A DNA stretch of 64,000 nucleotides, taken from the NCBI RefSeq assembly GCF_000165425.1, contig NW_001799544.1:186001-250000 (forward strand). Direction: 5' to 3'. Positions 12,739 through 55,663 of the stretch are shown here, one piece after another; within the stretch, counting starts at the first letter, position 1; every line of letters starts with the position of its first letter. The notes beneath the pieces are model-generated. The model was not told the origin of the DNA, did no database searches, and saw only the letters and a program-made list of their open reading frames with translations. Origin of the DNA: Paramecium tetraurelia. Taxonomy: Eukaryota > Ciliophora > Oligohymenophorea > Peniculida > Parameciidae. The position numbers and the translations under genes were made by a program.

Positions 12739-15700
12739 ATGGATACTATTTCTGAAGACACTCCTTCTTAATCTTATATAAAGGATGCATCCATGCAAGA
12801 GAAAACAGATAATCCTTAAAACTTTGAAAAGTTAGAGGCTTGTTATTTAAAGAGGAAAGTAAAAGCAATTTAGAACATTTGTGAAAAATACTCAATTTTT
12901 TTATACTTTTTATTGGGAATAGATCTAAACAAACACTAAATTGACATACTTCAATAGATGTGGGGTAATTTTAGTATGGAAACCTAAGAAACTTAACTTC
13001 CCGATGCGATAATAAAGTGAAATAATTATTATATTAATAGATTTCCTAATCCTGATTATGGATAATCAAGTTCTCATTCAATATCTGTAACTGAAGGATT
13101 TGAATTAGTTAAGACTCTGGTGAAATTTAATAAAGGTAGTATGGAGGAGAAAATATTATTAAAGGCATGTGAAGGTGTATTATAAATTTTGGATGATTCA
13201 AAGGAAAATTCAAAGCATAATCGTAAAAAATTATTTAGATAGAAGGTGAGAAGAGAGAATTAATTTATTCAATTTGAAAACACAGAGGAGTCAAAACGAT
13301 TAGAAACTAGTGCAACAATTAATGAGATGGATGAGAAAGAAAAGTTAAAGGATTAGCTAGTTTTAAAGCTCAGTAATAAGTTAACTGGAAGTTGGTAGTT
13401 TGATTCAGATTAGAATTAAATTAATGAAGCTTTCGAAATAGATTATAAATTGTTGAAATTCTTACCAAACAAAAAAGTAAATAAGGGTGGTTATCTTGTT
13501 AAATATGAAAATGAATGGCATAGAACAAAAAGAGATACAAAAGATTTTTCAACTTTAGTGAGAAACTTGATTTGCTTGATTCTATGCAGACAAGGATACT
13601 TTACTCAATAATTTTTATCAAAAAATGGAAAGTATATATTTTGTTCTTTGTTTGCAACAGAAGAAAGCTTGAAAATTTAAGCAGAATCCTAAGGACTTTT
13701 TAAACTTTTAAACATATAGTTTATAGATCTATACTCTTTCGAACCTCTTGATAAGAGTTATAGACCCCTCAGATTAAATAACAGATTATGGAAACCTCAG
13801 AATTATAAGAATCTCTCTTCAATGTTTTTGTACTTTAGACCAATTTTAGTCGAGTTGATTTAAGAGATAGATTTCAAAAGAATAGCTAGAGAAGTTAATT
13901 AGAGCGGAATCAATTAAAAATTATTTAATTATGGATTTGAAATGTATGATGATTAGGATTGTCCTTCTGATCAAGAATGGGCAGCCTACTATTTCTTTTT
14001 GACTCATTTACATTAGTAAATCACTGCTACAAGATCGAGCTTTAAGATACATAATGATATTGCAGCCTTAATCAATAAATAGATCACTCCATTAGAATTA
14101 TACTTAAGAAGAGTATAATCAGAAAATTGGGTCAAAGCAAAAAACACAAAATAAAGTAATACTTACTATTAAGATCTTGAAGATATTAAGAATAAAAAAA
14201 TTGAATAACTTAAGAAGGATGCTAGTGGTGTTATTGAAGAATATAAGAATATTTTTAATTTAACTACTGCCCCTTATACAAAACTAATAAAAGTCTTAAA
14301 AAAGGAATAATTAGCTAAGAAATATTTGGAAATATTCAAGGAATCTCTTAAAGTAGCAAATAACGAAAAGAAATATCTAAAATGTCTATGGGACTTAGTA
14401 TATTTGGATCAGCCTTTAAATATGAAGACTAAGTATTCGAATCCTTAACCAGATAGATCACTGCATCATAAACATTGTCAGTTGATGTGTTGGAAAAAGT
14501 ACTAATTGAACTAAGGAGAAAAGGTAACAATATTTTAGTCGTCAGAAAGATTGAGACTAGCTTATCTGAATATATATTAAAACTTTAATATCTCCTTGCT
14601 TACTCAAAAAGGTCTAATCAAATAATTATTTTGTTTGCATGATAACTTCGAACTTTATGGCATTTACTATTCCTCCTATGAGAATTTATCTCGAAATAGA
14701 GAATAATTTTATTAAGAAAAACTATTTGATATTGCAACCCAATTGAAATTCCATTTATTAAATCCAATGAAAATGAAATTCGATTTGTTATGTTAATATT
14801 TTGGAGAGTCTGTAGGAACCTACTTTTATTTCCTTTGTTTTTTCTCTTAAATGCTACTGTATCAAAATTGCTTAGGCTTACTCTACTACTTGATTTAAAT
14901 ACCATCCAGTTTACAATCGTATTTAAGTATCTTAGAAATTATCTACCTCGTTTTTTAATTATAGATAACATCACTTTACACTTCTAAATGGGAATAATAA
15001 TTAAAAATATTCAATTAATCTTTTGGCATCAATAGTCAAGAGGATATAGATACTACTTCAAACAAATAAATTGGAGAACCTAAAAGATCCCTCATAAATG
15101 ATTAAATGAATGTACCTTCTATCAATGAATTAGATTAAATATTTAGGGAATGTGTTTCCATGTTAATTTTTATATTGCTTCAATTGCTATACTCAGTCAT
15201 ATTTATAGCACTTTATTTCTTATGTGCATGGTTTCAGTCTCTGTTCAAATAGACCACCGCTATTAATAATTCTGAAATTATAATTATTGCTATCTTACAT
15301 CTAGGTCTAAATAAGCTATACACATTTCATGCCTAAAAAACCATTTAATAGTTAGTTGATTTTGAATAGCAACGAACGATTTAGGCTGTAAAATTGAGTT
15401 ACAATTTAAAACTCTATTCTTTTTCGATCATCTAATAATTGGGGCCTCTTTTGATTTTAAGATTCTTTAATCACTCATTTTAGTTGGTCTGCTAATCTGA
15501 TTCTTGTGAATAGTACATTGGATATTACTTTCTTACTTATATAATAATAAAGAGCGTTGAAAAATTATGTGTTTTTCTATTTAATTTTTATTCCTTAAGA
15601 AGATAACCTTTGTTTATTTATAAATTCCAATAGCATGATATCAACGAGTACATTGAAGTTCAATCTAAGAAGCCTTCCAATATAAAAGATCAATATTTTA

Positions 15701-16998
15701 ATTGCATAGAAGAAAACTTATAGTAAAATATGGTGGAACTGACTATTTTAACATATTTTGCGTACATCTATCCAATCACATACTTTATGCAATGGCTATT
15801 GTTTGTAGTTTAGATCTATGCAGATAAAGCACAATACCTCTATTATTATTAAAGACCTTGGCCATAAATCGATTGTTTTGTCAAAGTTTGGAATAACATT
15901 CTTTAATATATCATATTGTCTAGTGTAATAATAACAAGTTATGGATTATCGAATTCTCTTGTTTTTTAAGATAAAAGTTAGATATTTGTATTCGTTTCAT
16001 TTATGCTCCTCAGTTACACCATGAATTTTGTATACTAAGTATGGTATTCAGAAACGCCTTCCTATTTATAGAAATGAAATTTAAGATAAAAATACTTAGT
16101 CAAATCGACACTTGAGAAATTCAAAAAAAAGAATAAAACTATTAATTTTGTTGATAATTAAAACCTCAAAAGAATGCCCATCTATAAATTTTATGGTTCT
16201 AAACTCTAAGAACAATCAGAAGAATTTGAAACGATGAGTTCCGATAGTGATTTAGATAAATACTATATAAGATAAGATGATTTGGCAGAGCCAATTCTTT
16301 AAGATGATGATACTACTGTCTAAAAACCAAAATTGAAAATTAGAGACAGAAAAACTCCTATTTTTGTAAGATCTTCTAGTTTCTATGAAAAATTTATGAT
16401 TCCTAAAAAGAAGAAAGCAAAAAATGAAGAAAATATTTAAAGATTGTTCCATAAAGTTAACCTATTGCTAAGTTATCACAAATCTTGGACTGATCTAAGA
16501 ATAATTTAAAGGAATTACTATATTCCAAGAAAAAAGTAGTTTGTTAAGAACTTTGACATTTTAAGATATAATATTATATAAAGAAGTTTGTAAACATAAA
16601 AAATTCAAGCAAAGTTGTTTATTTAAAAGTTTTATAGAAAAAAGATTACAAAATTAAAAGATTCTAAAGAAGAACATGATATTCTAGAGCTGGAAGGGAT
16701 CTATGAGAAGATGAGAAAGTATTACAATAAACATAAGTGGTTAAATGCATAGAAATTTATATTTATCAAAATAAAGAAGGCTGTGTGGTTCAATCGATTC
16801 AGAAAGACTACTATTAGATTGAATTCCAAGATTTTAGTTAATGTCTTTTAAAAAAGATTATTAGCCAAGTAATTTCCAGGAGAAGAAACAAACTTTTAGC
16901 ATTTTGAAAAAAACAATAAAGGTTTTGAATTCAAGGAGGTTTCTTTGCTAAATATTATCAATTTTAGTCAATAATATTCTTAAAAGTAATAATTTTGA
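12739..16998 (+). CDS. Anoctamin (TMEM16)-family membrane protein with long charged C-tail
   Basis: One 24-nt intron (13017-13040) gives 1,411 residues. Residues 1-650 are a hydrophilic N-terminus with a Lys/Glu-rich helical region. The anoctamin membrane domain follows: YFGESVGTYFYFLCFFSQ at about residue 680 matches the conserved first-helix signature (Y-F-G-E plus aromatic stretch). A later block around 15720-15960, with ENLQQNMVELTILTYFAYIY, a DKAQYLYYYQRPWP turn and VWNNILQYIILSSVIITSYG, matches the conserved C-terminal helices of the family. About 300 mostly basic residues follow the last helix, longer than in most members. Anoctamins are Ca2+-activated ion channels or lipid scramblases; I cannot tell which from the sequence. 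TGA 16996-16998 is only 19 bp before the next ATG. Confidence 0.78.
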
Positions 16999-29632: not shown

Positions 29633-32600
29633 ATGGCAACCAAATAAAAATCAATTGAAGATTATAGAAATGCTGTGAAGTTATTAAAATTAAAAGTGCT
29701 CAAATTGCAGAAGCACAACGAAGAGCTTGTCGACAAACTAAGAGAGCAAGGAATTCCCCTTGATTAATAGCACGATTAAGTTGATCTGAGCAATCAAGCA
29801 GTTATGGGAATTTTTTCAAGAAGTTGTAGAAGGGTTGGACTAACTCCAGAAATGATGTTTAGAGCATCTGATAGGGAAGGATAAGGATAGATAAGTACTG
29901 AAGATATGAGACTTTTTTTATCGAAAGTTAGATTAGGTTTGAATAATACCTAATTGACTATGTTGGTGAGAATTTTTGATGAGGATTGCTCAGGAGTCAT
30001 CAAGAGAGAAGGTATTATTCAAAAAGTAATATAGAGTATTATGATTGTTTGTAAGCGTATGGAATCAATGAGGAGAAAGTATCTGGTTAAGCTAGAACTT
30101 ATGGTTAGGAGAGTCTCTTAAAGTACGCTCGTTTACTATTGATGAATAGAATGTCAGTTGAGGATTCTCTTAAAAGAATGGGAGATAATATAATTCCATC
30201 GCATTTTGTGTAATTTTGTAAACTATTGTAAGGTCTTTCATTCATGGAATTGATGGATCAAATTTATTAAATGAAAAGGAAATCATAGCTGTTTTCAATC
30301 ACATTGATGTCAATAAGAGTGGAGTTCTTTAGGCTACATTTTATGATTAAGAAGTTCGTAAAGCAATGAGGGTTGCATAATCTGACATAGGTTTGGGCGT
30401 CCAAATAAATCCAAATCCAAACGCTGGAGGAGGAGGAGGCAATCCAATTCCTAAGGCTTAGCCTGTGGGCATCCTGAAACCAACTCAAGCTTCTTAATAA
30501 TTGGATCCCTTTAGAATGACTCAAACGTAGATGGGATAATCAAAATCAGGTCTGAATATGTCATCTTCACATGCATTTTTGAATGAGACAATCATTATGT
30601 TGACTGATGAGGACAGGAAGAATATTCAAACAATTATAACCAAATTAAAAGCATAAGGAGTTGATGCTATTGAGTTTATAAGAAATGTTATATAATAATT
30701 GGAAGTACCAGGGGCAGGAATTTTGTTGTATGACTTTTATAAGAGATTTGATAAGAAGATTCCAAAAAGCGATTAATTGTCATTTTTTAATGCAATTGAT
30801 TTGAATAAAAATGGGTCCATCGATTATGATGAACTGATGGTGTTTTTCTAAGAATTCAAGTCTCCAAAAGACAATTATGATTTGTTGTTTGAAATTTTAA
30901 CTAGAAAATTATAAGCGTTAGAAATAGGAATAGTTTAACATTTAGCTTCTGAATAAATTTATGAAGATACCCAATTGAATTAGGAATTATTTTATTAATT
31001 GGCCTAGATTTTATTCTCATGTCCCTCAAAGAAGCATTCTGATGCCCTATTTTCTTATTTTGATATAGATGGATCTGGAGTTCTATCAGCTCAAGAAATC
31101 ATTGATTAAGTCCAAAAGATTCTATTAATTTATGTTCCTTAGAAAACTATGAATTTAGATAATACACTTAATAAATCAATGAGAGCTTCTCTGAAATCAG
31201 TAGGGGAATATGCAACAACACTATCGAAATTGAAACCTGTGTTAATAGAAGAGGATTATTTTAGTAAGTACAGAATGGAAGGAAGTGGAAGAACTTTACA
31301 TAAGGAAGAAACTAAATGGACAACTATTTTCAATTCAGATTTAGCATGTTTAAGGTATGTTTACGAGGAAATTTCGAAATTGGAATAGAGTCCAGGTACA
31401 AAATGGGAAGACCCAGACTTTGGACCTACCAAAGAAGATCCTTATGGTAGTAAGAGTATGTACTTTGCTGATAACGATGTACCAGAGGGAGCTCCATAGC
31501 CTAAGGAATGTAAATGGTTGAGACCTGAGGAGTTCTTGGCAGCATTAGTAGAGAATGGAGATGAACAATATAAAAATTGTACTGTTGATGTGTTTGATGA
31601 AGATGGAGCTGCTTCAAATGATGTGTGTCAATCTAAGTATTTAGGTAATTGTTGGTTTGTCTCTGCATTATCCATTATATCAGGGTATGAGTAATATTTG
31701 CAAGGGGATTTTGTGATAACCTAAGAATCCATATAAGAATTGACAGATGAGGAAGTCAACGGAATGCTTATTGGAGTTTATCCACCTTGTTTCAAATTCT
31801 TAAGAAAATATGGTCTATATGTGATGAGATTCTTCAAGAACTTTGGGTGGAAATATGTTGTTATAGATGACAAATTATGTGTAAAGGATAATGAATACGT
31901 ATTTGGTAAATGTAGAAAGCCGACTGAATGTTGGGTCAATTTGATTGAGAAGGCTTATGCAAAGCTTCATCAAAACTACTTTTCTTTAACAGCTGGAGAT
32001 ATTGCTTAGGGACTAGCTGACATGACTGGTAAGGTACCTGATAAAATTAAATTGAATGAAGAATGTACAAAGGCTGAAAAGGAAGACCTTTGGAATCTGT
32101 TATTAAAATGTAAGAAGGACGGAACAATGTTGGGATGTAGTGCCGAAGGTGGAACTGAGTTGTATTTAAAAATAAATGATGAGGACACAGGTGTTATGAG
32201 TGGACATGCTTATGGTATATTAGATGTATTTGAAATACCTGATTAGAGTTGCGATAACTATCATAAATCACATAGATTATTAAAAATCAGAAATCCTTGG
32301 GGATATGGAGAGTGGAAATTGAAATGGTCAGAAAATCCCGATTATTCTGCTAAATTGGATAAATGGATAGATTGGATAAATGATTATTATTAAAAGGAAA
32401 TTGAAAAGGCCAAGTTGGAAGGTAAAGAACCTCCTGAACCATACGTTTATGGATAAGATGACGGTACATTCTTTATGTGTTTCAAAAGTTGGAGAACAGT
32501 ATTTTCTAATTTGTTCTAATGCATGTATGAATGTTTCAATAAATTAATAGTGATTTTCCTGATGATTGGAGTGGATTGAGAGCATTCGATTAATTTGGAC

Positions 32601-41198: not shown

Positions 41199-44100
41199 TC
41201 ATAACTAAGAATCCAAAATCTTCCTTACTCTCTTTATTTTTGAGGAAACAAAGCATTTTATAGTGTAATGAATTGGTTTACTTTTTTTGGTTCTACGGAA
41301 TTTGTTCATTCTAAAATATACAATTAATTTGTACCTGATAATTACATTATCGTAGTTATTATGTGGGTTATAATGCTTAAATAAATGCATCTTTTCGAAT
41401 CTATTAAACACAACATCGTTATATTAATAGTGATGATTCTAATCATAAATAAAATTCATACCTCTGGAGTGTTGATTATTTAGAACTGGGACATCTAATT
41501 TAGAATGCTTACTTTAGTGCCTGTTTTAGTACTTTTTTTTCTGTTTGTGTGCCTCTACTGTTCTGAAAGTGATTGATCACTATGCGATCCTCTTTCTTCC
41601 TTCTTTTTTTATGGCGGAGGTTATTGAAATTGAGTAGGGGAAACTCTAGCAGATTTAGTATTAGCCTTAGAATTACTTGAGGGATTATTAGATAAATTAT
41701 TAGATAGAGGATTCGAATAGGTGTTGGAACGATTGGATGTTTGTCTTATTGAATTCTATTATTGTTATTGATATTGAATTTGATCATCAATTTATCCTGA
41801 TTGTTGTTGCTGATAACGAAAGGTGAGTTTAGCATGCATAGAACGAGCAGCAGTATAAAGATGGTGGTTTTTCTTTGCGAATGCTTGTGAACCACTGCTC
41901 TACTTGCTCAATTGATTGGTCTCCTCTTGTTTTGAATTAAGAGAGTCAAATTACTTACTTTAAGATTGTTCAGTAATCACTTGCAATTTTTCTTTATGTA
42001 AGTTTTCTAAGAATGCTTGCTTAAATTAGTACCTAGAGTTTCAGACATGAAGGGAAATCCTGCAGTTCTTAAGGTAGTCTTGTTCTATTGTTTTCTTAAC
42101 TGATTGCTAAGTAATGGATCGACGGCTAGCTCCTCATAGAGTTGATCTTCCTCGCTGTCTGGATTCTCGCTTAATTGCTCAGGACTATATTTGTGCACGG
42201 ATTGGGTTTTACTCAAATAGCTGGCGGATTGCTAGGTCTAATCTATGTAGATTTAATATATATTTATATCAAGAGTATAAATACTTTCACTGTATGGTAG
42301 TTGAGATGACATAGGGAAGTCTTCGGATGTCATTACTTCCTATGATAATTTCTGCTAATATTGTTTGGCTCGTTCCCCCACAATAAATAACATCGAAAGA
42401 GCCTTTGGTTCCTTATTCTTTCTGTCAATTTTATAGCGTTATTGTGGATGAGGGTAAATATGCTTCTCAATGACGTTTAGTTTTTTAGGATAATACTACA
42501 AGTATTGGCATTCAAATAACAAATGACCCTTGATTTTGCAATAATTGCATTCGAACATATTATGATTCTAGTAACAATTGTCCTTGAATAAACAAAAAAT
42601 CTCATTGTCCTAAGGGTAGGTTTTAATGATTTCTAAGAAATCTGATCTTCTCAATTTTAACACTGTGGTCAATCCCTGACTATTGATTGAAATATAAGGA
42701 GGAATCCCACTTACGAATGAGAACTCTCCAAAAGTTTGTCCTTCCGATAATGTATGAAAGGTCCTCTTGGGTTTGCCTTGGAAATACCCCTAAAATTGAA
42801 TCTTCACTTTCCCTTTCAAAATAAAGTAGAGACAGAAATCTTCAACTTAATGTTCCTATGTAATACTAGTTTGAATGTCTTACCTAGACAATATTCTCCT
42901 CGGGATTGTATTGTGCAATATCAAACCAGTAAATCAGTTGTTACTTCAAACTGGATGAGAACTTCTCGAACAATCTGATCTTATCGACCATCTTAGAACG
43001 AATAGAAACTTAGAGTTCTTCCTAAAGCCCTGGTGACAACTTCTTTGATAAAAGTTCTCTCGTCTTAGTTATGTCTTCCTAATCTTAGATAGACGATAGA
43101 CATTACATCGACCACATATTCCAAATATGAATAACAGCGACATTACAACCCATAATCAATTCTTTTGTCTTTAATTCCATTCAAAAAGGAAGCAAGATGT
43201 TTCTCTTTCTCCTCTTCTAACTTCATAGCCGGTTTGATCCAGATGAAAATGGCAGAGGCCGTGTAAATCATAGTAAACGAGCTAACGATCATAAAACCTT
43301 GTAAGAGCAAAGCATTTGATTGAGTGACATCAATAGATATAGCTCCATTATGAGTCAATAAGGATACAGCCAATGTGAGTGAATAATTTAGGTCTTCCTC
43401 GGAGTCTAAGAGACAAGCAAATGTCATAATCAAGGCCACCCAAAGAATCAATATGTACATTATTAATTAAGTGGAATTGTATATGTTTTCAAAGCGTTCT
43501 GATTGTCTAACCAATTGCAATGCGATATAAGGAATGAGGAGGTATTTTATCTCATATTAGTATGGGAAGATTAAGACTATGGCTGACACTAGTCGACTCA
43601 AATCGAGTATGATTTTGGTTTGATCAACATATTCAAGATTAAACTTACCCTCACTCAGATGGAAGGGTCCTCGTTTAAAATAAATATCAGCTATAATTTG
43701 GATTAGTGCCAAACAGTGGGTAATGTAAGCAGGTATCTTGAAGCCTGGCTCTTTGGCTATGTGTATGGGGATGAATATGGAAGATGTGAGGATTATGGCT
43801 GAGGTCAAGGTGAAATAGCAGAAGGTGAACCACTTATACAGTTAGGGTTTGACTACATATAATTAAACGTATTTACCTTAGGTTGAATCGTCTATCAAAG
43901 TGATGTCTTTTAATTGGCTCCAATTGATGTTTGGTCTCATCTTCTGAATAAATTTGGTCACTATATTCTTCACGTGAATTGAATTGAGAGTGACAGATTT
44001 CATTTTATCCATCACTTCCGATTGCAACTAGAATAAATATTTCAATCTTACAGATTCGGAGTACTATGAATCCTGTGGGTCCAATACTGAAACATCCATC

Positions 44101-44423
44101 AATCTACTATCACTATTATAAACTCTTATTTTTTATTCAATTTGAAAAGGGTTCTTTTCAAGGCTGTTGTTCGAGTGCATGTTCGTATAGATTGTGGGTA
44201 TTTTCATATCACTCCCACTGCCATCCACTGGCTGTTTGATTGATGAATTCTTAAATTTGTTGATCAACTCTGGCATATTCACACTTGAAGAAGACTGCTC
44301 CTCGTCTTCTTCTTGGATCGATTCACTATTCTGGTAACCCATGGTCCTTGATACTCGTCTTTGAGGAATGTTTTCAATCGGGTCAAGGTCTTAAAATTCT
44401 TCAAATTTCTTAGATAACTACAT
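41199..44423 (-). CDS. Cyclic-nucleotide-binding channel-like protein with CCHC knuckle
   Basis: Seven introns (44028-44051, 43853-43876, 43079-43106, 42856-42883, 41958-41980, 41439-41461, 41311-41334) give ~1,016 residues and exact closure. After an acidic N-terminus come six hydrophobic segments in channel order, a C-linker (LSKKLSPGLQEELQVSIRSK, then DKIRLFEKFSSSLKQQLIYW) and a cyclic-nucleotide-binding domain at about residues 490-570 (VEDFCLYFILKGKVK, GQTFGEFSFVSG). The order is that of CNG/HCN/EAG channels. The region between S5 and S6 reads LLTHNGAISIDVTQSN, so no GYG/GFG filter is visible. A CNYCKIKGHLLFEC zinc knuckle follows the CNBD (about residue 590). The tail is Gln/Ser-rich. 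May be a channel subunit or a non-conducting sensor. Confidence 0.8.
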
Positions 44424-44448
44424 TATATATTAAAAATCATTCTTTAAA
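44424..44448. promoter_or_regulatory. 25-bp spacer between divergent start codons
   Basis: Only 25 A/T-rich bp separate the ATG of the channel-like gene (minus, 44423) from the ATG of the 5-phosphatase gene (plus, 44449). Any shared promoter must overlap coding sequence. Confidence 0.4.
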
Positions 44449-45581
44449 ATGAAAACTCATTCTGTTTATCCTCTAATTGAGGACCCTCTCCCATTCCCAC
44501 TTCTTAATGATACGTTCTTCAGTGAATATTCTCAAGATCCAAAACTTATAGGCAGCTTGAATCAAGAGATGCTGCATCTCAATCATAAGTGCTCCTACAA
44601 ATGGCTAAATTAGCCAAGAAACGAGTGGAATTTTGAGAACGATATTAGAATGCTCGTCATAACATGGAACATGCATGGCATGATACCCAACCATTCCCTA
44701 AAACGACTTTTCAATATTGATATATTGCATCATGATTTAATAGTTGTTGGAACATAAGAGTGTCAACGTAGTATAGTTACTTCAATATTTTGTGAATCAA
44801 AAAATGAGTGGGAAGTCAAATTACAGAATGAATTAGGAAAATCTTTTATAAAAGTATAATCAGCATCACTGAATGCAATGCATATCATAGTCTTCGCTCA
44901 TAAATCATTGATACCCAAAATAAGGAATGGTAAGTCTTACACTTTCTCTTAAGGTTTCATGGGAATTGTTGGTAATAAGGGAGGAATTGCAGTATCAATA
45001 AATATCAATGAAAAGATCTTCTTATTCATTAATAGTCATTTAGAAAGTGGGTAAAACTCTGAATCTAAAAGATAAACTTAATTTTCGAAATTGGAAACTC
45101 ATTTTGAAAGCTAAGTGTCTTCTAACCATAATCATGTCTAGTATGATTATCTTATTTGGACTGGAGATTTCAATTCTAGAATCGATGACAGGATAATTCC
45201 TTAAACAATCAAAACTCACTCTGATTTTTTTGGATGGCTAGGAAAGGATTAAATGTATCTTAGTCGTCGTAATAAATTAAGTAATTTTAGTTTAATACTC
45301 AAGACTACTAATCTTAATTTTAAGAAGGAATGATCTTTTTTCCACCAACATACAAATTGCTATAATACTATAATTCTTGGGCTGTAGATTAAGATTTCAG
45401 AGTTCCAGGTTGGTGTGATAGAATTCTCTTTAAAGAAAATAAAAAAATGACGTTGCAATCCACCTAATAAAGTTTTCAAGAAATAACTTCTAAATTGAAA
45501 CTTTAAAACTATGATGCCAACTTTGACCTCTTAGGTAGTGATCATCGACCTGTATTTGCTTAATTCACAATAGCACTTTGA
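44449..45581 (+). CDS. Inositol polyphosphate 5-phosphatase
   Basis: Introns 44930-44953 and 45281-45303 (both ending AAG) give 361 residues. Family motifs appear in order: MLVITWNMHGMIP (TWN.NG-type start), IVVGTQECQRS with catalytic Glu, NGFMGIVGNKGGIAVS, FINSHLESGQ, WTGDFNSRID (the WxGDxNxR motif), FPPTYKLL, PGWCDRIL and the final LLGSDHRPVFAQF. The catalytic His/Asp set is complete. These enzymes remove the 5-phosphate from phosphoinositides or inositol phosphates. No membrane or SH2 domain is attached, so the enzyme is probably the short, soluble kind. Confidence 0.92.
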
Positions 45582-45622: not shown

Positions 45623-48243
45623 TCATTCAATAATAATACTCTCTTAAAAGAGCACCATAAGTCCAGGATTGTCAGCTAAGAAAGATCTTAATGATTGTGA
45701 ATCCAAGAAAATAATCTCAGTATCTTCCACCGCCTCAACTATTGTAGAAGTTCTTCTGTTTCTAACAATGGAATCAATTTCTCCAAAGAACATTCCACTT
45801 GTCAAAGGATAAGTCTAATTAATAATGCATTCGATAATATACTTTTATTTCATTTATTGAAGATTTCTCTGATACCTCTGGAGTTTAGATACTTGGTTTT
45901 TATTATTCAAGCATTGCTAAATTGATGGGCAAAGAAAGTCTCTTCTTTTTCTAATCAATAATCTATTATTGTTATTTGTTATGATCACTTGTGGTGGATT
46001 CTTATCGATTAACCTTAACCGATTATCCTTCATATTACTGAACAACATAATCAGAAGGTAAAATAACTTGTGCCTTGCCAGAAACTACAAAAAATGCTAC
46101 TGAAGCCATAACCCCATATTATTGAATCATAGAATGTTTTTAGAAAAATCGTTTCTGGTTCGATATCATTTCTAATTGAATCTTCTAATATGAGGTTAAT
46201 TACGAAAAGAATTTATTTCTTTCCATGATTTATATCTATGAACGCACTACTTAAAGGTTCTCTAATTTCTGCATCACTTCCCCATATTAGAATATCCTCA
46301 AAAAGTCTGCCTTACTCAAAGTTATTAATTCGCATTAATTCATAGCAGTGGCATTGGCTCTTCTCTTATTTTAATTGAAGAAACATCCTTCACCAAAATA
46401 ATCACCATAATGCATATATTTAACAAAAACAGGATTATCAGAGTGTATTTTGACAGTGCCTTTGCGAATTATATAAAACTCACTTCCAACCTCATCTTAA
46501 ACACAGATATTTTAGTTCTATTCATAAGTGTTAATGGTTGAACTCTCAAAAATCTATCTTACTTAATGGATATTAGCATGTTTAAACAAATCTATGTTTT
46601 CAATCAAACTTAATTCTTAAATTGTATTTAATCTAGAATCTTCAGATGATTAAATTATAACAATTGTGTTTTCTAAGCCTACTCCTGGAACTCTTAATCC
46701 AGAATCAGGAGGGATATCCTTGGCTGCAGTATGAATTAATCTTAAATTTTCCTTAACTTCTGGTGGAAGTAAGGCCAACAATTTAGCAGGAGTGTGAATA
46801 GGAGGTACACCAGCTTCATGCAAGATGAGAGAATTCTTCCATTTATCTTCACTCATCAAAAAATTGTACCTTGATTCTGAAATGACTCCTTTCTCAAAAA
46901 TTGCTTTTAATCCATTTGGTTCATAAAATGTGTCCCCACTGAAATAGATTGATTTACCACCTAATCGTACTGTAAAGGACAAACAAGGAATACTATGGAG
47001 TGAATAGTGAAATTCAAATGAGGCTCCGTTTATTTTTAAAGGATTTCCTACTATAACTCTCTCAAAATTAAAAAGGGATTCAATATAATCGACTGAAAAT
47101 CCAGTCATTGCAGCATATTTCCTAACAAAACTCTCTTTAATTGTGGCAGTACTAATTAATACTGTTTTTTCAGACTCTAATAGTTTTTAAAATGTTCCTG
47201 CATCATGATCAGCATGATTATGAGATATAATTACCCACTTCACCAATCTACTTGGTATTCCATTCTTCCTCAAGAGAAGTGTTGTGAAAGGAGGTGGATC
47301 TAGCATTACTCCCAAACCATTTATCCAAAAGATGTAACCTGATACAGAACCCTTTGGATCAAATCCATGTGAACAACCCAAATACTGTCACTCCAAAAGT
47401 AGGAGGAGTGAATGTCTATTCAAAGTAATGCTCAACATATTATTAATCATTGGGATTACTGAACAACCCATACTTTATATATGCATTAGATTTAACATCA
47501 TCAATCATGATTTCCACTTTGTTTTTCATCTTAGCTATCTATTTTCCATTTTCAAATATCAAAAATTTCTAATCTACTTTCTTTACTATCACATCCTAAC
47601 CTAAATTGACTTGATTTTGTTCATCAAAAATTACAAAATTGATCAATAAGTCTACAGTCAAGGGTTCACTAGGATTAAAGGGATTTTTTGCAAAATGTCC
47701 TAATTCCTTCACTATGTCTGGTTTGCCATTATAATCGTTGCTAAAATCTTAATCAAATTTGGATAAATCTTTTGGTCCAAGTAATGTTTCCTGAAATATT
47801 GCTCTGATTGCTTCTTCCCCTTCCTTATCAGTAATTAGAGTCACTCTCCTTCTCTTTACAAAAAAACTGAAATAAGCTGGGAATTCAAATTCAGCAACAG
47901 ACAAACAAAATCTTTTATCAAATCGGTGAGAGGGCACAATAAATATACCTGGCACATCTAAACCTAAGTTGATACTGTCTTTCAAAGTTTCAGGAACCAT
48001 ACTGAACTGTATGGCACCTGCTTTAGTCATTATAACACTCCCTCCTCTGGGCAGTTTAATTTTGTTTGATATGTCACTCTCAGAAAACTACGACTCTGAT
48101 TTTAGAAGTATTGGGTTTTTTATTTGATTCGATTATCTGGCATCCTCGCTTTGACTCTCATTCTCAGTACCATCATCATGATGGGAACTAGTCATAGAAG
48201 CATATTCAAGCACTTCTTACTCATTAACAAAATGACAAGCCAT
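45623..48243 (-). CDS. Metallo-beta-lactamase-fold protein fused to cyclic-nucleotide-binding domains (one frame break)
   Basis: 864 codons if one extra base at 47377-47379 is disregarded, with one intron (45841-45868, approximate). Residues ~1-270 are an acidic start and a mixed domain I do not recognise. The MBL fold follows: GCSHGFDPKGSVSGYIFWI, then SHNHADHDAGTF (HxHxDH, about residue 340), HYSLHSIPCLSF, YFSGDTFYEPNG and VPPIHTP, giving a full set of metal ligands. Two or three cyclic-nucleotide-binding domains are C-terminal: EFYIIRKGTVKI with YFGEGCFFN, a divergent copy around VAFFVVSGKAQVIL, and GMFFGEIDSIVRNRRTST. Members of the MBL fold hydrolyse phosphodiesters or thioesters. The design suggests a cyclic-nucleotide-gated hydrolase, which is inference. 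The frame break sits in a ggg run; see findings. Confidence 0.75.
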
Positions 48244-53879: not shown

Positions 53880-55663
53880 ATGTGCAAAACACTATCAAGT
53901 CATTGCAGGATAAGATCTAAAATATTGAGATTTGATAGAGAGGGGAAGTGATTGCATCATCATATAGTATGGATCACATAGTATAAAGATGAATAAAGCA
54001 AGCGGTAATTGGTGTGTTTATATTCTATATAGAGATGCTTCCTAAGAAATTCAGAAATTTGATAGGCTATAAAGTACAATCCTAACAAAAGCAAAGTTAA
54101 TCCACAGATCTCACTGTGATTGATGAAAGTCTTTTGATATTGGAACAAAAACTCATTTAGAAATGTGCATTAAAGGCTTAGCCTAAAAGCATGCGTGGAA
54201 AGCCTAGAGCCAAGATTGAAGTAGATTTACGTAACATCAGGGGATTCCTGGGCAAGAAGGAACAAAAATAGCCAGAATGCATTCTTGCTTAGATGATGGA
54301 GGATAAATCTGTTGTATTTGAGGACGACATATTTACAGGCGATTATTTGGTGAGACAACCGATTAAGCATGGATTTTTCAATTTAACTGATGGTTACAAT
54401 ATGCAAGATGTGATAGAAGATCTATACAAACTAACTCTATATGGATTGAGTTGCAAATTGGAAGTCAAAAATGTCTCTGATTACTATTGTATATTAGTAA
54501 TTCCAGATATCTTCCAAAGAGTGCAAGTGAAAATGCTGGTCGATATGATAATAAGACAATTGGGATTCAAAGGCATCTATCTACATTTGGAATCTGTCTT
54601 ATCAAGTTTCGGAGCTAATCTTTAGTAGTGTTGTGTAGTGGATATCGGATATGAGAAGATCAACATTACTTGTGTAGATGATGGAGTCATTTTGCCAGGA
54701 ACATATGTGAGAAAGAATTTCGGAAGTAAGGACATCGATTTAGTACTGATGAGGCAAGTTACAAAAAGAAATGCTTGTGATTAGGCTGTTCAATTGTAAA
54801 GCAACAATTATGGAGATCTACTCTAAATGGAAAAACTCAAAGAAAAGGCTTGCCAATTGACATAAAAGGAGGATAAACTCAATTACAATTATGAACTTCA
54901 TTGTTTAAGAAATTAAAAGGAAAAGAGGTTCTTTGTATAACACAATGATGGGTTGTACATCTCTGCAAATACACTGTTTGAATCAGAACCATTTAATGAA
55001 ATCAGAAAACAAGATATGCATGAATGTTTTGATTTTACAGGACGTCTTTTTGAAATGTAATATGATCCCGAAGACAATTTTGAAGAACTTAGTGGAGGAA
55101 TTCAGTTGTGTTGGTATTGGGGCTCAAAAGAAAAAGAATAATAATATTTCATAGAAGGAAATCAGATGTTGAATCCTAATTATATGATCCCTCTAGATCA
55201 TATGATTGCTTACTCCATTGCCTAAGTGTAGGATCCAGAAATCAGACAGAAATTAGCCAACAACATTCTGTTTACAGGAGGAGGAGCCCATCTCATTGAT
55301 CTTGTGGATGAAGTAGAAGCCTTATTGATTGAAAAGTTCTAAGTAATGGAACTCAATGAGATTGAAAGAGTAGAAGTGAAAACAATCATAAGAGATGTTA
55401 GGCCTATCAATATGGCATGGGTTGGAGCAACTGTCTTACCCAAAACAGAAAGTGTCAGTGAATTATGGATTACAGGGTCTAGATGGCTAGGTAATTTGGA
55501 ACCTCAGAAGGATGAATTGGAAGATATGATCAATTAATTTGATGGAGATGTTTAATAGTTGGAAAAAAAACTAATTGCTTTTGCAAAAAAAGACAAAGAA
55601 AAAGATCGAAGTTGTGAATACGGACTTAAACATCTGAAAGAGAAGATTCCCTTTATTTGGTGA
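53880..55663 (+). CDS. ARP8: Actin-related protein 8 (ARP8), chromatin remodelling subunit
   Basis: Introns 53899-53929 (31 nt, ending GAG, less certain) and 54005-54032 give 574 residues. IIIQYGSHSIKMNKAS corresponds to the first phosphate-loop strand of the actin fold. CVVDIGYEKINITCVDDGVI is the second loop, LANNILFTGGGAHLIDLVDE the adenosine motif, and INMAWVGATVLPKTESVSEL and KEKIPFIW the ARP8-type C-terminus. Loops are extended relative to actin, as in ARP8 (Gln/Lys-rich insert after GKPRAKIEVD; another between ITGSRW and the end). ARP8 is a nuclear subunit of INO80 that binds histones. If intron 1 is wrong, an alternative ATG at 53849 would change about ten residues. Confidence 0.78.

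Follow-up and report, generated by a model that had tools for sequence, protein, structure and literature searches.

A Paramecium gene joining a metallo-beta-lactamase fold to cyclic-nucleotide-binding domains: a probable self-sensing phosphodiesterase with relatives in bacteria

Two proteins of Dictyostelium discoideum are known as GbpA and GbpB or, alternatively, as PdeD and PdeE. PMC11988041 describes them as class IIb phosphodiesterases in which a metallo-beta-lactamase (MBL) catalytic domain is followed by two cyclic-nucleotide-binding domains (CNBs), and which are activated by cGMP/cAMP. Atypical class II phosphodiesterases with the signature [T/S]HxHxDH are defined by Rv1339, YhfI and CpdA (PMC9293780). 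We analyzed a 64,000-nucleotide stretch of Paramecium tetraurelia DNA (contig NW_001799544.1, positions 186,001 to 250,000 of the forward strand; hereafter the window) and found on its minus strand, at 45623..48243, a gene encoding an MBL domain upstream of two CNBs. We establish here its architecture, metal-ligand motifs, cassette residues and fold match, the purifying selection and the spread of its family. The product is probably a class II-type, two-metal cyclic-nucleotide phosphodiesterase of the MBL fold with built-in allosteric sensors, the activity of which would be raised by cyclic nucleotide.

As in GbpA and GbpB, the MBL domain precedes two CNBs in one eukaryotic chain, although the chain in the window is broken by a frame change. 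It differs from them by an insertion in the second CNB; the likeness is one of layout, and the ciliate activity is predicted. With the atypical class II phosphodiesterases Rv1339, YhfI and CpdA and with phage and bacterial Apyc1 it shares the MBL fold and [T/S]HxHxDH, but the chains of YhfI and Apyc1 comprise only 245–257 residues and lack CNBs. The regulatory CNBs of PKG and PKA have the CNB fold and the cassette in common with the window protein, but govern a kinase, whereas those of the window protein are joined to an MBL hydrolase. By analogy, the ciliate protein most likely works like GbpA, with a catalytic domain nearest to Apyc1 and YhfI. A preliminary description of the window, made from the sequence, had stated that each fold is known alone, which overlooks GbpA and GbpB (PMC11988041) and the full-length relatives in bacteria reported below. 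Judged by title and start of abstract, no ciliate or bacterial member of the MBL-CNB family was found described among the matches listed from the open-licence literature, which lacks most subscription journals, and no paper found there combined ciliate, cyclic nucleotide-binding and metallo-beta-lactamase; a radial-spoke 'Pde' of Tetrahymena appears, its type unstated, in PMC12399478, and passages of PMC11971395 yielded nothing pertinent.

In the proposed mechanism, the MBL domain would open the 3',5'-cyclic phosphate of cGMP and/or cAMP, and binding of the same or another cyclic nucleotide to the two C-terminal CNBs would increase this activity. A rise of the messenger would thereby accelerate its own removal, a negative feedback as in Dictyostelium GbpA. 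We infer the substrate, activation rather than inhibition, the cGMP preference and an intracellular location. In the host genome, exon-level domain matches numbered 105 for cyclases and 69 for class I phosphodiesterases. Considering this abundance, the window enzyme would constitute an extra, self-sensing arm, so that ciliates may possess a messenger-destroying activity alongside the class I enzymes.

Read with genetic code table 6, in which TAA and TAG encode glutamine, the window contains 48 open reading frames of at least 200 residues, compared to a single one of at least 150 residues with table 11, a contrast that marks it as ciliate DNA. Reading the stretch with the standard code was rejected, as its sole open reading frame of at least 100 residues has 152 residues. 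By table 6, the minus strand carries frames of 294 residues (47362-48243) and 535 residues (45774-47381) and a last exon (45623-45814). The host genome contains duplicated genes, and its introns measure 22–29 bases wherever gene parts align well. The gene is composed as follows:

45623..48243, minus strand: whole gene in the ciliate code, with ATG at 48241-48243 and TGA at 45623-45625
45843..48243, minus strand: exon 1, containing a one-base frame change (47,390 to 47,359)
47359..47390, minus strand: frame-change stretch, one base off relative to the intact duplicate copy
45815..45842, minus strand: intron of 28 bases, GTA...TAG; the duplicate copy has a 23-base intron at the same place
45623..45814, minus strand: exon 2, encoding the second half of the second CNB (CNB-B) with its cassette FGEIDSIVRNRRTST and the stop; PF00027 at E 5.6e-5

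The one-base difference places the N-terminal domain and the MBL domain of the window gene in different frames. The duplicate (G000:C204), with 85% DNA identity over 2,695 aligned columns and 91–92% protein identity, continues in a single frame across this region and, with one 23-base intron spliced, encodes 864 residues. This length is also that of the model in the preliminary description, which in the window crosses the frame change; neither this break nor the conserved N-terminal domain had been mentioned there. The window copy could be a freshly broken duplicate, or the assembly could be wrong at the break, with the function residing in the intact copy. We consider this a serious possibility, if somewhat short of an even chance, and it is compatible with a phosphodiesterase function of the family. 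It would account for the frame change relative to the intact copy and for the single occurrence of the window's version of the stretch in the genome. Against it stand the Nei-Gojobori dN/dS values between window gene and duplicate (ciliate code), which were 0.024 for the piece before the break (its final two or three codons being already past it), 0.052 for the piece that follows and 0.093 for the last exon, at dS values of 1.68 (near saturation), 0.76 and 0.62, respectively, and the absence of any in-frame TGA from the 865 codons compared. Low dN/dS on both sides and the lack of TGA indicate that the break, if real, is recent, and by this codon comparison the window gene was under protein-coding constraint until recently, or still is, with the assembly wrong at the break. 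An intron at the frame change was rejected, since each of the GT...AG candidates weighed by eye would delete a stretch conserved in the relatives and since the duplicate is intronless at that place; three paralogues have a short intron near this position.

Searching the host genome (69.07 Mb in 231 contigs as searched) with the protein retrieved the window gene, the close copy and three further, less similar genes (two on C177, at 640 kb and at 247 kb, and one on C69) with 40–57% identity over the matched stretches. When read through their introns, these paralogues retain the N-terminal domain, the MBL domain and two CNBs. Eleven extra introns of 24–45 bases, set by the splice aligner in the poorly conserved linker of the paralogues, were dropped, since the reading frame continues through them uninterrupted. 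A frame change proposed near the end of the C177 copy at 640 kb disappeared once the exon was read straight; the model of this copy has 800 residues, counted from the first aligned residue.

The MBL and CNB motifs were found where the preliminary description had placed them: in the 535-residue frame, Lactamase_B matched with E 2.9e-6 (27.8 bits against a cut-off of 22.7) and cNMP_binding with E 6.1e-19, both exceeding their Pfam cut-offs, and the latter match lies in the C-terminal half, where the preliminary description had required a CNB hit. Conservation was counted in 34 family proteins, the only set aligned at full length, which remained from 44 gathered (3 ciliate, 9 bacterial from the first scan and 32 further loci) after removal of 9 duplicates and of L031, which had no open frame; neither the C69 paralogue nor the pieces of the window gene itself belong to this set. 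The MBL domain contains the full set of metal-ligand motifs by sequence:

46653..47397, minus strand: metallo-beta-lactamase domain, by Pfam PF00753, profile match and predicted structure (of the duplicate copy)
47205..47222, minus strand: HNHADH metal motif, with Ser directly before it (SHxHxDH signature); HxHxDH in 34/34 family proteins
46995..46997, minus strand: third-motif metal His (LHSIP), 34/34
46932..46934, minus strand: fourth-motif metal Asp (SGDTF), 34/34
46791..46820, minus strand: HEAGVPPIHT motif, a family signature; HEAG in 32/34
46731..46733, minus strand: fifth-motif metal His (LIHTA), 34/34

In the structural ranking for the model of the duplicate copy, Apyc1, a cyclic-mononucleotide phosphodiesterase, took places 1–3 with 17–19% identity in the alignment, and in the sequence-profile ranking of the MBL domain, YhfI and Apyc1 together took four of the top five places. 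The preliminary description had proposed superposition of the metal ligands in a predicted structure as a check; at the level of the fold, the MBL part of the model does superpose on Apyc1. An initial AlphaFold prediction, from pieces of five paralogues alone, was of low quality (pLDDT 41.7) and was set aside. The window scored 13.6 bits with the curated model NF041851 (cut-off 400). PF23023 gave no listed match in the window and at most 15.8 bits in three relatives tested (cut-off 50). Since these cut-offs were missed, we treat the window protein as nearest kin to these curated families and not as a member. In a viral structure library, seven matches had E 0.001 or better, headed by F8WQ61 (317 residues, unnamed; TM 0.54 by target); a Hyperionvirus MBL protein of 587 residues spanned 580 columns, but with an rmsd of 24 and TM of 0.17–0.22.

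The CNBs might instead control an MBL hydrolase with another substrate, such as RNA or a phosphonate diester, and sense a messenger that the enzyme does not degrade. This seems unlikely to us in view of the rankings of Apyc1 and YhfI, and because the characterized enzymes of the same layout, GbpA and GbpB, degrade cGMP/cAMP according to PMC11988041. We retain the proposal of the preliminary description that a hydrolase is controlled by cyclic nucleotides, and among the three chemistries it had named (phosphodiesterase, glyoxalase or nuclease-like), these rankings and the [T/S]HxHxDH motif, which the window gene has within its MBL fold, favor the phosphodiesterase. Idle MBL-fold proteins exist, and the CNB cassettes are degenerate in some bacterial members, but with four metal-site motifs in all 34 family proteins, a sensor or scaffold devoid of catalysis is very improbable.

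For the predicted phosphodiesterase, the sensor part comprises the following elements in addition to exon 2:

46242..46616, minus strand: first CNB (CNB-A), PF00027 at E 6.1e-19, with matches to CNB structures of PKG and PKA
46353..46406, minus strand: phosphate-binding cassette of CNB-A, GDYFGEGCFFNQNKRRAN, with Glu and Arg kept
45843..46232, minus strand: first half of CNB-B with a low-complexity insertion, from sequence and family alignment

CNB-B is interrupted twice, by the 28-base intron and by the low-complexity insertion, and the last exon alone matched the second half of cNMP_binding with 23.5 bits, below the cut-off of 27.5. One Pfam CNB stretch passed singly in the spliced duplicate (E 0.001) and two in a spliced paralogue; at E 0.1, two were found in each of three bacterial relatives tested. 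The preliminary description had allowed for two or three CNBs, of which the spliced exon and the relatives with two Pfam stretches bear out two, and no third CNB was seen in the window gene. Glu and Arg are present in both cassettes of the window gene and of its duplicate, so that binding is predicted. Across the family, the CNB-A cassette has Glu in all 34 proteins and Arg in 29, the five without Arg being spirochaete proteins. In CNB-B, the window cassette has Arg at the canonical column, as does, among the 32 rows with letters (two of 34 are gapped, and several loci stop before the protein end), the duplicate copy only; L015, L016 and L021 have it one column earlier. With Arg kept in both cassettes, this gene pair is unusual among the proteins compared, since both of its sensors are apparently competent. 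In CNB-B of the window gene, Thr follows this Arg, the residue by which cGMP-selective cassettes are marked in PKG, and the second CNB of the window copy looks cGMP-type. In the spirochaete members L018–L021 and L034, the canonical-column Arg is missing from both CNBs (apart from the shifted residue in CNB-B of L021) and the four MBL metal motifs are intact; their sensors may respond to a different signal or to no signal at all.

Upstream of the MBL domain, the family has a further conserved part:

47509..48069, minus strand: conserved N-terminal domain, about residues 59-245, which lacks any Pfam match and, by structure, hints at a degenerate MBL half

A profile comparison of this domain with the MBL domain of the family revealed no similarity, and a sequence search of the PDB gave no match up to E 5. 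In the predicted structure, in which the N-terminal domain was folded together with the rest of the protein, both it and the MBL domain could be aligned to ELAC2, again without sequence signal. ELAC2, the long RNase Z, differs in its RNA substrate and is not known to carry CNBs.

An alignment of the ciliate members yielded 40 pattern matches among 84,980 bacterial and archaeal species, nine of which encode relatives (four Planctomycetota, one Myxococcales and four Spirochaetes; 34–39% identity from query residue 1 to 404–444); an earlier genome scan with one protein had given 27 pattern matches and no relative, and none was found in the viral contigs scanned. All nine encode a complete protein; measured to its end from a point slightly upstream of the first conserved motif, it has 714–724 residues. 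Among the genomes sampled, the N-terminal-domain profile matched in 100 of 296 from Spirochaetota, 8 of 294 from Planctomycetota and 4 of 282 from Myxococcota, counts that include the genomes of first discovery and some weak or fragmentary matches. A second, divergent family copy with weaker N-terminal profile matches (E about 2e-19 to 6e-5) was observed in G003, G004 and other spirochaetes. No shared partner was apparent by eye among the neighboring open reading frames at seven of the nine bacterial loci; no homology search of these neighbors was made.

In a tree of the 34 proteins, the ciliate clade (99/100) shares a group (96/99) with planctomycete and myxococcal proteins, four of each, apart from the spirochaetes. 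This tree is unrooted and does not fix the branching order inside the mixed group; L030 and L028 are long-branched and the composition deviates in 15 rows. Gene transfer from bacteria to ciliates is possible. We tentatively suggest, giving it somewhat less than an even chance, that the family is a conserved four-part machine found across domains of life and assembled from a degenerate MBL half, a catalytic MBL phosphodiesterase and a pair of CNBs; it would be common in spirochaetes and scattered in Planctomycetota and Myxococcota, with which the ciliates group. Nucleotide control would vary by lineage from two apparently competent CNBs, as in the window copy, to none, and self-activated cyclic-nucleotide destruction would be an ancient invention of bacteria that unicellular eukaryotes share or have received. 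As far as our searches reach, the layout described for the Dictyostelium phosphodiesterases now has representatives in ciliates and also in bacteria, there in the form of complete proteins. The bacterial relatives, having neither introns nor an unusual code, should be easily expressed, making it directly testable how an MBL phosphodiesterase is switched on by CNBs and whether members whose CNBs are degenerate are permanently active or respond to something else.

In the window, no Rfam families or tRNA were found. The next minus-strand gene downstream (41980-44456) has a PF00027 match (E 5e-9) in the frame 41980-42933; the 511-residue frame upstream of it has no Pfam match (E 0.001) and no PDB match (E 0.1), and we guess that both frames form one gene. 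The duplicate of the phosphodiesterase gene is likewise followed by the start of the 511-residue frame. On the plus strand, an endonuclease/exonuclease/phosphatase family 2 gene (44365-45330; PF22669, E 6.2e-35) separates the two CNB genes; by eye, there is seemingly no room for it beside the duplicate. Further plus-strand genes encode an Anoctamin-family channel (13021-16074; PF04547), an EF-hand calpain-type protease (30162-32576; PF00648) and a divergent actin-like protein (53993-55660; PF00022, E 2.5e-22, also PF17003). The G+C content is 0.24–0.27 over positions 1-28000 and rises to 0.30–0.35 over 28001-60000.
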